From contig JAOZVI010000003.1 of the NCBI GenBank assembly GCA_029938265.1, positions 1 through 62,296 on the forward strand: a stretch of 62,296 nt of DNA. The letters run 5' to 3'. The notes beneath the pieces were generated by a model. It made no database searches. It saw nothing but the letters and a program-made list of their open reading frames with translations, and was not told the origin of the DNA. Positions 16,916 to 23,339 of the stretch are shown piece after piece. This DNA comes from Flavobacteriaceae bacterium. GTDB lineage: Bacteria; Bacteroidota; Bacteroidia; Flavobacteriales; Flavobacteriaceae. Positions within the stretch are counted from its first letter, which is position 1, and each line of letters opens with the position of its first letter. Made by a program: the position numbers and the translations under genes.

Positions 16916-18379
16916 TTGAAAAATTTAAAAGACATACTGTTTAAAATTGCAATTGAAGCTGTAAATGGCACAACTGATGTTAAGATCAATAGTATTGCCT
17001 TTGATTCTAGAAAAGTAGAAGAAAGAACATTGTTTATTGCTCAAAAGGGTCTTTTATTTGATGGACATAATTTTATAGATAATGCAATAAAAAATGGAGG
17101 AGTAGCTATTATTTGTGAAGTATTCCCCAAAGTATTACAAAAAAATATTACTTATATACAAGTTAAGAATAGTGATGAAGCTTTAGCAGTAATAGCTTCA
17201 AATTATTATGATAATCCTTCCGGAAAATTAAAACTAATTGGCGTAACTGGTACAAACGGAAAAACAACGATTGCAACTTTATTGTATACGCTTTTTAAAG
17301 ATGCAGGATTTAAAAGCGGACTTTTATCTACAATTAAGATAATGGTTGATGAAGAAGAATTTCCGGCAACACATACAACTCCTGATTCAATAACAATCAA
17401 TCAATATTTACACAAAATGGTAAATCAAGGTATTAGTTATTGTTTTATGGAAGTCAGTTCACATGGAATTCATCAAAAAAGAACCTCAGGATTAGAATTT
17501 GATGGAGGAGTTTTTACAAATTTAACCCATGATCACTTAGATTACCACAACTCATTTGCAACATACAGAGATGTAAAGAAGAAATTTTTTGATAATTTAC
17601 CAAAATCTGCTTTCGCTTTAGTGAATATTGATGATAAGAATGGTGAGTTCATGTTGCAAAATACAAAGGCTCAAAAATACACCTATGCTTTAAAAACTGT
17701 AGCTGATTATAAGGGTAGAATAATTGAAAATCAGTTTGATGGTTTATTGTTGAATATAAATGATCAGGAAGTTTATACAAAGCTAATTGGGAATTTTAAT
17801 GCATACAATTTATTGGCAATTTACGCTACTGCGGATTTATTGGGAATGGAAAAATTGGAGGCTTTAAGGTTAATCAGTATGCTTAAAACTGTTGATGGAA
17901 GGTTTCAGTATGCTATATCAAAAAGTGATATTACAGCTATTGTAGATTATGCACACACACCTGATGCCTTAAAAAATGTATTAGAAACGATTAATTTAAT
18001 CCGATCCCAAAATGAACAGGTAATTACAGTAGTTGGATGTGGTGGTGATCGAGACAAAGATAAAAGGCCGAAAATGGGAAATATAGCTTCTACTTTAAGT
18101 AATCAGGTAATTTTTACTTCAGACAACCCTAGAAGTGAAGATCCAGATACAATTATTAGAGATATAGAAGCAGGTGTTTTAACTGAAAATTTCAGAAAAA
18201 CAATTTCAATTACTGATAGAAAGCAAGCAATTAAAACTGCTTGTAAAATAGCCGATAAAGGAGACATAATTTTAATAGCCGGAAAAGGCCACGAAACTTA
18301 TCAGATTATTGGAAATATAAGATCTGATTTTGATGATTTTAAAATTGTAAATGAATTATTAACGGAAATGAATAAATAA
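16916..18379 (+). CDS. murE: UDP-MurNAc-tripeptide synthetase (meso-diaminopimelate-adding)
   Basis: Mur ligase of 487 residues that adds the third amino acid to the peptidoglycan precursor. The ATP-binding [10 protein letters not shown] lies at about residues 104-113, and DNPRSEDP near 404-411 is the signature that selects meso-diaminopimelate. All three Mur domains are present, in contrast to the neighbouring murD remnant. The start is a TTG 7 bases after ftsI, chosen because the conserved N-terminus LKDILFKI begins there. Confidence 0.95.
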
Positions 18380-18381
18380 CG

Positions 18382-19614
18382 ATGTTATACTATTTATTTG
18401 ATTATTTAGATAACCAACATAATCTGGCAGGCGCAGGATTGTTTCAATACATTTCTTTCCGTTCTGCAATGGCATTCTCATTTTCATTATTGATCTCAAC
18501 TATTTATGGTAGAAAGATTATTGATAAATTAAGGCGATTACAGGTAGGAGAGTCTATTCGTGATTTAGGTTTACATGGTCAGGTTGAAAAAACCGGAACC
18601 CCTACTATGGGTGGTTTGATTATCATATTTGCAACCTTAGTTCCTGTATTTCTTTTAGCAAAACTACACAATATTTATATTATTTTATTGATTGTAACTA
18701 CCCTTTGGATGGGTATGATTGGTTTTATAGATGATTATATCAAGGTATTTAAAAAGAATAAAGAAGGTTTAAAAGGTAGGTTTAAAATAGTTGGTCAGGT
18801 CATTCTGGGAGCTTTTGTTGGCATTGTTCTTTATTTTAATCCGGATGTAGTTGTAAAAGAAAAATTACGTGGTGATCAGATTGTTAAAATTGAACAATTA
18901 ACCAATTCCACCAGTGATTTTACAGAGGCTCATAAATCAACAAAAACAACTATTCCTTTTGTAAAGAATAATGAGTTTGACTATGCAAGTTTATTGAGTT
19001 GGGCTGGAGAAGGTGCTAAAGATTATGTATGGTTATTATTTGTAGGTATAGTAATATTTATAATTACTGCTGTTTCTAATGGAGCTAACTTAACGGATGG
19101 AATAGATGGCTTGGCAGCCGGGAGCTCGGCAATAATTGTTCTGGCATTGGCTGTATTTTCATGGGTTTCAGGTAATATCATTTTTGCTGATTATTTGGAT
19201 GTGATGTATATACCTAACTCTGGTGAAATGACTATTTTTCTTAGTGCTTTTGTAGGGGGTCTTGTTGGATTCTTATGGTATAATACATATCCGGCGCAAG
19301 TATTTATGGGCGATATTGGAAGTTTAACAATTGGAGGCATAATTGCTGTTCTGGCTATTGCTGTACGAAAAGAATTACTTCTGCCGATTTTAGCTGGAGT
19401 CTTTTTAGTAGAAAATTTATCGGTTGTGATGCAGGTTTCCTATTTTAAATATACAAAGAAAAAATATGGAACAGGTAAGCGTATATTTTTAATGTCACCC
19501 TTGCATCATCATTACCAAAAAAGTGGTTATCACGAAAGTAAAATCGCTACTAGATTTTGGATCGTAGGTATTTTACTTGCAGTCCTATCCATAGTAACAT
19601 TAAAAGTAAGATAA
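18382..19614 (+). CDS. mraY: Phospho-MurNAc-pentapeptide transferase
   Basis: Integral membrane enzyme that makes lipid I from UDP-MurNAc-pentapeptide and undecaprenyl phosphate. The family motifs [16 protein letters not shown] (about residues 115-130), [15 protein letters not shown] (about 233-247) and the HHHYQKSGY loop (about 373-381) are intact. Its 410 residues include the extra periplasmic loop common in Bacteroidota. It follows murE by two bases. Confidence 0.96.
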
Positions 19615-19636: not shown

Positions 19637-20185
19637 ATGAGTATTTCGGCTTTTGCAATTCAACAAAATTTTAATACAAAAAATGCCATGGCATCTAAAA
19701 TGATCTCTGAGCTGTTACATGTTCGCAAAGAGACAATAAGAGAATGTTTGGCGATTTGTGATCAAGATGAACACAGATTGGAAGAAGTTCTTAAGATCAA
19801 TGGTGTTCAATATATTAATGATTCACAAGCCGAAAATGTCAATGCTGTATATTTTGCTCTAGATAGTGTGGAATATCCTATAGTCTGGATTGTTGGAGGA
19901 GTTGACAAAGGGAATGATTATGAACCTTTGTTGCCTTTGGTTAGAGAAAAAGTGAAAGCCATTATTTGTATGGGTAAGAATAATCATAATATTATTAAAA
20001 CTTTTGTAAATGTTGTTGATTTTATGATTGAAACACCTAGTGTGAGTGAAGCTGTAAATATAGCTTATAAACTAACCGAAAAGGGAGATGCGGTATTGTT
20101 ATCGCCGGCATGTGAAGGCTATGATATGTTTGATGGTCATGAAGATAGAGGAAAAAAATTTAGACAAGCCGTTAGAAAACTATAA
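19637..20185 (+). pseudogene. murD: MurD remnant: C-terminal domain only, key residues altered
   Basis: An open frame of 182 residues that aligns with the last 40 percent of MurD. The substrate-binding and ATP-binding domains, including the GTNGK loop, are missing, and an in-frame stop lies directly before the ATG, so there is no hidden upstream part. In the retained part, the usual NDSKATN is NDSQAEN, SPACAS is SPACEG, and the His of KHN is Phe. These positions contact D-glutamate or the catalytic site in MurD. It cannot be a ligase by itself. It may be a decaying gene or a retained domain with another role; the uninterrupted frame leaves both open. Confidence 0.8.
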
Positions 20186-20212: not shown

Positions 20213-21418
20213 ATGAAACAGCTATTAGCAAATATAAAAGGAGATAAAACCATATGGGCAATCATTGCCGTGTTGGCTATTTTTTCATTTTTACCTGTGT
20301 ATAGTTCAAGTACAAATCTTGTTTATGTTACCGGAAAAGGTACCACTTTTGGGTATTTAATAAAGCATGCTATTCTTATATTACTTGGTTTTGTAATTGT
20401 TTATGCAACACATAAAATACCGTATAAGTATTTTAGTGGATTGTCTGTTTTATTGATGCCTGTAGTTGTGCTTTTACTTATTTTTACGATGACTCAAGGA
20501 ACCGTGATTAGCGGAGCCAACGCCAGTAGATGGATTCAAATTCCGTTTGTAGGAATGGGATTTCAAACATCAACTTTGGCAGTTGTAGTTGTTATGATGT
20601 TTGTGGCAAGATATCTAGCTCGTAACAGAGATAAACAGATTATTTTTAAAGAGAGTATTTTATATTTATGGTTGCCTGTTGCAATTATTTTGATGCTTAT
20701 TTTACCTGCAAATTTTTCAACAACTGCAATTGCTTTTGTAATGGTAATGCTTTTGGTATTTCTTGGAGGTTATCCCATTAAATATATTATGTACATTTTA
20801 GGGATGGCAGTTTTAGTTTTTGCCATTTTTTTACTTACTGCAAAAGCTTTTCCCGATGTAATAAAAAACACTAGAATTCAAACCTGGAGCAGTAGAATTG
20901 AAAATTTCTCATCAGGAGAAAGTGAAAATAATTATCAGGCTGAAAAAGCCAAAATAGCCATAGCTTCTGGTGAAATTAATGGTAAAGGTCCGGGTAAAAG
21001 TGTGCAAAAAAACTTCTTACCACAATCATCTTCCGATTTTATCTATGCGATTATAGTAGAAGAATTTGGCTTAATTGGCGCAATTTTAATAGTATTATTA
21101 TATTTGGGATTACTTTTTAGAATAGTGATCATAACAACAAAAACTGATACTATTTTTGGCACTTTATTAGCATTAGGTGTTGGGATACCCATTATATTTC
21201 AAGCTTTTATAAATATTGCTGTTGCTGTTGGTTTGTTTCCGGTAACTGGTCAACCTTTACCTTTGATAAGTACGGGAGGCACTTCAATTTGGATGACTTG
21301 TTTTGCGATTGGAGTAGTATTGAGTATAAGCGTAGCGAATAAAGAAAAAGTTAAAGAAAGTAACGAGGATATTGAATTAGAAAACCCTTTAGATATTTTA
21401 CATGAAGCAGTCGGTTAA
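20213..21418 (+). CDS. ftsW: Septal peptidoglycan polymerase FtsW
   Basis: SEDS-family glycosyltransferase of 401 residues with about ten membrane segments that polymerises lipid II at the septum together with FtsI. The characteristic GxANASRW-like segment [13 protein letters not shown] (about residues 99-111) and the C-terminal [16 protein letters not shown] (about 343-358) are present. It overlaps murG by 17 bases. Confidence 0.95.
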
Positions 21419-22493
21419 CATATTGTTGAGTGGAGGGGGAACAGGCGGACATATCTACCCGGCAATTGCAATTGCAAATGAATTAAAAAGCAGGATTCAA
21501 AATGCAAATTTTTTATTTGTTGGAGCAAATGACAGGATGGAAATGGAAAAAGTTCCTCAGGCAGGTTATAAGATCAAAGGATTGAATATTTCAGGATTGA
21601 ATAGAAGTTTATCAATAAAAAATTTAACGTTTCCATTTAAATTGATCGATAGTTTATACAAAGCTAAAAATATTATTAAAGAATATAAACCAGATGTAGT
21701 TATAGGAACAGGAGGTTTTGCTTCTGGGCCAACATTGTTCATGGCTAATAAAAAAAATATACCGACTTTAATTCAAGAACAGAATTCTTTCCCGGGTATT
21801 ACTAATAAATTGTTGGCCAAGAATGCACAAAATATTTGTGTGGCTTATGGTGGATTGGATAAGTATTTTCCACAGGATAAAATTATCATGACGGGTAATC
21901 CTGTAAGACAAGATATTCTTGATATTTCAAAAAAAAGAGAAGATGCAATAAAGTATTTTAAGCTTGATGGAAATAAAAAAACATTGGTAGTATTAGGAGG
22001 TAGTTTGGGTGCCAGAGCAATTAATAAAATTATTGAAAAAAATTTACAGGAATTACTTAAAAATGATCTTCAAATTATATGGCAAACAGGAAAATTATAT
22101 TTTGATGATTATAGAAAATACGATCAAAAAGAAGGAGTACAAACACATGCTTTTATTCAAAAAATGGATTTTCTATATGCTGCTGCTGATATTTTGATAA
22201 GTAGAGCAGGAGCTGGTACAATTTCAGAATTGTGCTTGGTAGGTAAACCGGTAATTTTTATTCCGTCACCAAATGTTGCCGAAGATCATCAAACCAAAAA
22301 TGCTATGGCAGTTAAAAAAAATAATGCTGCAATAATGATTAAAGAGGATGAATTAAAGGGATTTTCAAAGGAATTTGATAAGCTTTTTGAAGACGAACAA
22401 TTGCAAAAAGAATTGAGTAATAATATTAAAAATATGGCTTTGCCAAATGCAACAGCAAAAATTGCTGATGCCGTTGAAGCTTTGTTAAACTGA
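21402..22493 (+). CDS. murG: UDP-GlcNAc transferase MurG
   Basis: GT-B glycosyltransferase of 363 residues that converts lipid I to lipid II on the inner membrane face. The N-terminal [16 protein letters not shown] (about residues 10-25), [12 protein letters not shown] (about 99-110) and [17 protein letters not shown] (about 267-283) are the standard motifs. In most Bacteroidota murC follows directly; here only 90 bases with a large hairpin precede ftsQ. Confidence 0.96.
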
Positions 22494-22583: not shown

Positions 22584-23336
22584 ATGAAAATATCAAAATT
22601 AAAATTGAAAAAATATATTGTACATATTAAATTTACAGCTCTTTTCTTACTGGTTTTGTTTTTATACGGATTTGCTGCAAATAGACATTACATTAAAAAG
22701 ATTGAAAAAATAGACATTGAATTTAAAAATGGAAATAACCTATTTATCACTTATGAAACGGTTAATAAATTGTTAATACAAAATATTGATAGCACAAAAA
22801 ATCAAACAATAGAAAGTTTACATTTGAATAATTTAGAAAAATCTGTCAAAATAAATGCAATGATCCAGAATGCTGAAATTTATTCTACAATTGATAATAA
22901 ATTAGGCGCGATTATTACACAAAGAACCCCTGTTTTAAGAGTAGTTAATGGATTAGAATCATATTATTATGATGAATTTGGTAAAAAAATGCCATTGTCT
23001 AAAAATTATTCGGCTCGTGTACCAATTGTTTCGAGTAAAATAGATAAAGATAATAATTCAGATATTATCAATTTATCGAACAGAATTAAAGAGGATGATT
23101 TTTTAAAAAAGCAAGTTATTGGTATAGATCAAAATGAGAAAGAAGGTGTTAATCAATTTATTTTGAAAACCAGAATTGGAGACCAAATTATTATTTTGGG
23201 AACTGTACAGAATTTTAATAATAAAAAAAATAAACTAAAAGCATTTTATCAAAAAGCTTTAGCTGATAGTACTTTAAAAAATTTTGACACCATTAATTTA
23301 AAGTATAAAAATCAAGTTGTTTGCACAAAAAAGTAA
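22584..23336 (+). CDS. ftsQ: Cell division protein FtsQ
   Basis: A 250-residue bitopic protein: short basic cytosolic tail, one membrane segment (about residues 16-31), then a periplasmic part with a POTRA-like start (about 37-105) and a region containing YYYDEFGKKMPLS (about 127-139). It links FtsA/FtsZ to the wall machinery through FtsL. It follows the hairpin at the murC site and ends 3 bases before ftsA. Confidence 0.85.
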   Translation: MKISKLKLKKYIVHIKFTALFLLVLFLYGFAANRHYIKKIEKIDIEFKNGNNLFITYETVNKLLIQNIDSTKNQTIESLHLNNLEKSVKINAMIQNAEIYSTIDNKLGAIITQRTPVLRVVNGLESYYYDEFGKKMPLSKNYSARVPIVSSKIDKDNNSDIINLSNRIKEDDFLKKQVIGIDQNEKEGVNQFILKTRIGDQIIILGTVQNFNNKKNKLKAFYQKALADSTLKNFDTINLKYKNQVVCTKK

Positions 23337-23339
23337 AAT

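Follow-up and report, generated by a model that had tools for sequence, protein, structure and literature searches.

In the Flavobacteriaceae clade formed by Lutimonas and the genus of the window (the whole 62,296-nucleotide stretch of DNA that was analysed), the cells must begin their cell wall by a route other than the MurC and MurD ligases, and the loss of both activities in the ancestor of the two genera is well supported. What persists of murD is a stand-alone C-terminal domain that is under purifying selection. The best explanation of the whole, to which we assign a probability of about one half, is that MurC and MurD catalysis has been lost, that a peptide is joined to the nucleotide by an Mpl-type ligase, and that the MurD tail serves as a partner without catalytic activity.

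The murD remnant and its dcw cluster

The remnant, murD-C (19637..20185, + strand), is an uninterrupted frame of 182 codons with a TAA codon abutting its ATG on the 5′ side. Its profile match covers positions 265-441 of the 441 positions of TIGR01087 (murD), its Pfam match is to Mur_ligase_C alone, and it has neither the N-terminal UDP-binding domain nor the P-loop and central ATPase domain; the MurD-fold C-terminal ligase domain is present according to profiles, AlphaFold and Foldseek. Relative to MurD, the NDSKATN motif is changed to NDSQAEN, SPACAS to SPACEG, and KHN to NFN. A sequence-only reading of the window had described a MurD domain 3 that follows directly on a stop codon and has lost its ATP loop, as well as these three motif changes. 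The description is accurate for the window, and the motif changes are uneven across the clade: SPACAS and NDSKA are retained in several members, and the His of KHN is replaced by Phe or Tyr throughout. The start Met at 19637 corresponds to an internal Met in all 54 aligned full-length relatives, and the truncation thus made use of an existing codon.

The gene order in the window is mraZ, rsmH, ftsL, ftsI, murE, mraY, murD-C, ftsW, murG, ftsQ, ftsA, ftsZ, and the remnant still lies, as had been stated, between mraY and ftsW. The upstream genes murE (16916..18379, + strand), which is intact with its GKGHE and DNPR motifs retained, and mraY (18382..19614, + strand) are followed by murD-C, and the MurD N-terminal and central domains are absent between mraY and the remnant. 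Downstream are ftsW (20213..21418, + strand), murG (21402..22493, + strand) and ftsQ (22584..23339, + strand). The murC gene follows murG in all examined full-MurD relatives, and every outgroup cluster examined has it in the interval from murG to ftsQ. It is absent from the window cluster, and ftsQ comes directly after murG because murC has been lost. This absence had gone unremarked in the sequence-only reading, as had the recurrence in other lineages and the retention of an Mpl-type ligase that are described below. Comparison of dcw clusters among relatives shows full murD and murC in every outgroup cluster and neither gene in any cluster of the clade.

Distribution in the window's genus and Lutimonas

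The same truncation, with the same start and a length of 182-186 codons, is found in all genomes of the window's genus (6/6), and the same frame and start occur in at least 24 distinct related genomes at 60-98% identity. The carriers in Lutimonas include a closed 3.5-Mb chromosome (G030), the type-strain assembly of L. halocynthiae CECT 8444 (G280), and L. saemankumensis. The window is a MAG contig, and an assembly artefact or a private pseudogene might have been suspected, with a full-length murD in relatives as its expected sign. The close relatives instead share the truncation, and independent assemblies, including the closed chromosome and the L. halocynthiae type-strain assembly, agree on start and length, leaving this explanation with a negligible probability. 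The other MurD matches listed among 397 genomes of the family are full-length, at about 440-490 aa, a statement that covers the matches listed, and further tails were later found among weaker matches.

In trees of concatenated dcw proteins the window's genus and Lutimonas are monophyletic (support 1.0, and 0.99 in a second tree). The clade is nested among MurC/MurD-bearing taxa, and its sister, the G147/G341 lineage, has full MurC and MurD. A single ancestral event therefore explains the state of the clade.

Recurrence in other Flavobacteriales

A MurD tail of 172-198 aa between mraY and ftsW is also found in G156/G345 (g148), G261 (g253), G213 (g205) and G398/G235 (g227), with identities down to about 23% for the g227 tails. 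In G156, G261 and G398, where the cluster extends past murG, murC is absent, and in G345, G213 and G235 its loss is shown by the ligase count; G413 (g253) has the same ligase count as the genomes that lack MurC and MurD. In f9 (G044/G057) murD has been lost entirely, tail included. The Mpl-type ligase is present in all these lineages, as a fragment-level match only in G261. On the tree the recurrent lineages are separated from the focal clade by MurC/MurD-bearing genera, in a region where deep relations are thinly sampled, and their tails begin at a later point of the domain than the focal tail does. By position and start, therefore, at least two further truncations arose in Flavobacteriales independently of the focal one, in addition to the complete loss in f9. 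No earlier report of such a loss was found in the open-access PMC literature.

Other Mur ligases in the clade

The clade retains MurE, MurF and the Mpl-type ligase, and these, together with FolC, are the only Mur_ligase_M matches on the closed G030 chromosome. Searches with Mur_ligase_M found neither MurC nor full MurD in G000, G001, G003, G280 and G030, and searches with PF08245 and PF01225 found no further MurD and no MurC in the window's genus or on the closed chromosome, excluding a complete copy of either enzyme elsewhere. Both enzymes are present in the outgroups. The sequence-only reading had offered two alternatives, a full ligase elsewhere in the genome or a different pathway, and it is the second that stands.

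A murD2/murL pair had also been suggested. The MurD2-MurL system of Xanthomonas (PMC5808125) likewise bypasses the MurI-MurD step, with L-Glu epimerised after or apart from ligation, but it depends on MurC and on a full-length MurD2, neither of which is present here. The Mur_ligase_M searches yielded no further protein and hence no full-length MurD2, and the suggestion fails for want of this second ligase. L. halocynthiae encodes an 886-aa cyanophycin-synthetase-like protein that matches both ATP-grasp and the Mur central domain (G280:C17:193385-194845).

Selection, residues and structure of the tail

The dN/dS of murD-C is about 0.05-0.21, similar to or slightly above the values for its neighbours, and at codon positions 1, 2 and 3 it differs from the G003 sequence at 12, 12 and 47 sites; purifying selection acts on the frame. 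These values weigh against the view that the tail is a decaying, functionless relic that is kept for operon structure or has not yet been lost, as does the retention of the same domain by independent lineages. Neutral simulations for one species pair leave the frame open in 3.5% of cases, yet it is open in at least 24 genomes. The tails do evolve more quickly than domain 3 of full MurDs does (mean entropy 0.82 versus 0.58), and the divergence of the g227 tails and the disappearance of the tail from f9 are what such decay would produce; on balance we regard a relic as unlikely, though it deserves to be kept in mind. That a domain is kept repeatedly while its chemistry is lost suggests a structural or regulatory role, and a scaffolding or regulatory function, perhaps exercised by binding other Mur enzymes, has in our estimate a little less than an even chance.

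The AlphaFold model of murD-C has a pLDDT of 85, and the best 33 Foldseek matches are all MurD, so that the tail is predicted to fold as MurD domain 3. It resembles MurD in the fold of its C-terminal domain, in homology and in operon position, but it differs in having no N-terminal or ATPase domain and an eroded D-Glu site, and alone it is no MurD enzyme. The fold search also returned a plastid RNA polymerase subunit (9epc chain Q), a Mur-ligase-fold protein that is likewise a subunit of another assembly; at 441 residues it is much longer, and it belongs to the plastid and to an unrelated pathway.

Residues were compared between 22 tails and 54 full-length MurDs in E. coli crystal numbering, with the D-Glu-site residues of MurD as in PMC3527612. 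The equivalents of K319, T321, K348, S415 and F422 are invariant in the 54 full-length proteins and variable in the 22 tails; the window tail has kept only K348 among T321, K348, S415 and F422, and all four vary in the clade. Kept in the tails are the equivalents of H301, R302, N316 and D317, of which R302 and D317 are hinge/nucleotide residues and Arg302 is described as the handle of domain closure (PMC4816537). A split or hybrid MurD, with another Mur ligase lending its N-terminal and central domains and the tail acting in trans as domain 3, could draw on the retained Arg302 and Asp317 equivalents and on the SPACAS and NDSKA motifs still present in several members. However, drift has struck the D-Glu-binding positions, and searches of the clade with central and N-terminal domains found no orphan MurD N-terminal half, which makes such an arrangement improbable. 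The sequence-only reading had argued from altered glutamate-binding residues against a split enzyme, and the wider comparison bears this out. The tail is thus a selected protein that has ceased to be a glutamate-binding domain.

The retained Mpl-type ligase

Mpl joins whole peptides to UDP-MurNAc in a recycling role, and the enzyme of P. arcticus does accept L-Ala-D-Glu, if weakly: its rate is 1.4 per min, against 260 per min with the tripeptide, a preference for the latter of about 190-fold (PMC3060825). The likeness of the retained ligase to this enzyme lies in its signature motifs and in its clustering with E. coli Mpl and not with MurC: the KFxxY insertion, DFAH and MSSG are present, and the MurC motifs are absent. 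It differs in that its peptide loop reads LHTYSS, not PRSNTM, and in that here it would be the sole UDP-MurNAc ligase, with a biosynthetic rather than a recycling function. Its score is 165 bits with TIGR01081 (cut-off 389) and 239 bits with the MurC model (cut-off 335), higher with MurC than with Mpl and below both cut-offs. It does not conserve the Arg of the MurC L-Ala site (the second Arg of PHRFTR). The sequence carries no visible change specific to the clade, its few differences lying away from known motifs in a comparison with only three outgroup Mpl proteins; MurE likewise has few clade-specific changes, and these too lie away from known motifs. In the assembly that contains the window, the Mpl-type gene is cut short by the end of contig C252.

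The sister lineage presents a mirror image, in which MurC and MurD are full and mpl is cut to a central region of 195-212 aa with an eroded P-loop. These reduced frames (L268:1414-2049 in G341 and L269:1462-2046 in G147) have a dN/dS of about 0.25 and an identity of 48%.

A proposed route and possible sources of the first peptide

The route that we favour would start from a preformed peptide, probably L-Ala-D-Glu and possibly a tripeptide, which the Mpl-type ligase would join to UDP-MurNAc in a single reaction, with MurE, MurF, MraY and MurG then acting as usual. Joining a di- or tripeptide in this way would remove the need for MurC and MurD together, in keeping with the loss of both. The MurD tail would be a folded, non-catalytic protein made from its old position in the dcw operon. 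The chances that Mpl-type joining is the route taken are about evenly balanced. Counting against it, the Mpl-type sequence shows no visible change in the clade, and the characterised Mpl strongly favours the tripeptide.

The dipeptide could come from L-Ala-L-Glu, converted to L-Ala-D-Glu by an AEE-family epimerase. The candidate is an enolase-superfamily dipeptide epimerase sequence with a DxD near its C-terminus, matched by the NCBIfam epimerase models below their cut-offs. A strong homologue is present in 15 of the 17 genomes without MurC and MurD versus 16 of 43 others (Fisher p 4e-4, kinship ignored), and its carriers among the former include genomes of 1.6-2.2 Mb. In G235, which lacks MurC and MurD, the epimerase gene (L377:16616-17632) adjoins the dcw cluster; together with the distribution, this position suggests epimerisation as the source. 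By eye, the gene of Lutibacter litoralis (G296, L398) stands in a recycling context, after a gene whose start resembles an LD-carboxypeptidase. The homologue is missing from G003 (90% complete) and G057, no enzyme making L-Ala-L-Glu or L-Ala-D-Glu was found, and an epimerase route alone would need no glutamate racemase. MurI is nevertheless present in G000, G001, G003, G004, G030 and G280, six genomes that rule out its loss from the clade. As the source of D-Glu the epimerase is a somewhat unlikely candidate.

Since MurI is retained, a D-Glu ligase outside the Mur family is almost as likely a source as the epimerase. Such an enzyme would either make free L-Ala-D-Glu for Mpl from MurI-made D-Glu or extend UDP-MurNAc-L-Ala made by the Mpl-type protein. 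The higher score of that protein with the MurC model agrees with the second version, but the missing L-Ala-site Arg does not. Moreover, none of the ATP-grasp paralogues in PF13535, PF08443 and PF07478 occurs in both Lutimonas and the window's genus without occurring in outgroups as well, and no replacement ligase with the required distribution emerged from the three families. RimK (PF08443, about 200 bits or more) is found in G147, G341, G141 and G296 and is missing from G000, G001, G003, G030 and G280, a loss in the clade, and no obvious new ligase lies among the neighbours of mpl, murF and murI. A non-Mur D-Glu ligase is a minority possibility, to be taken seriously. An ATP-grasp protein matching PF13535 at up to 216 bits (L222 (G000:C88), L221, L224, L225, L223) occurs in the window's genus and in Lutibacter litoralis and not in Lutimonas; in G000 and G005 the PF13535 gene lies directly 3′ of a creatininase-like gene.

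Lutimonas has been isolated from marine settings where other bacteria abound, and Mpl is a recycling ligase, so that the wall peptides might be scavenged from other bacteria or obtained by recycling only. Recycling gives no net growth, however, and MurI and MurE are kept, which makes this source a poor prospect. The open-access PMC literature searched yielded no wet-lab data on the cell wall of the clade.

Extended to the other lineages, the Mpl-joined route would be a MurC/MurD-free pathway that has arisen several times, in which the first two residues are joined off the nucleotide (as L-Ala-L-Glu that is then epimerised or by an L-Ala-D-Glu ligase) and transferred biosynthetically by an Mpl-type enzyme, with the tail repeatedly kept as a non-catalytic subunit. 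This generalisation is tentative, and we hold it to be rather less than evenly probable.

Implications

To our knowledge, MurC and MurD are regarded as universally essential in walled bacteria, and they are antibacterial targets. An otherwise complete wall pathway without the two enzymes means that its first two steps are replaceable. Lutimonas strains are cultivable, and the loss is therefore directly testable. Kept repeatedly without its chemistry, the MurD C-terminal domain would also offer the first clean opening for studying what a Mur ligase domain does apart from catalysis.
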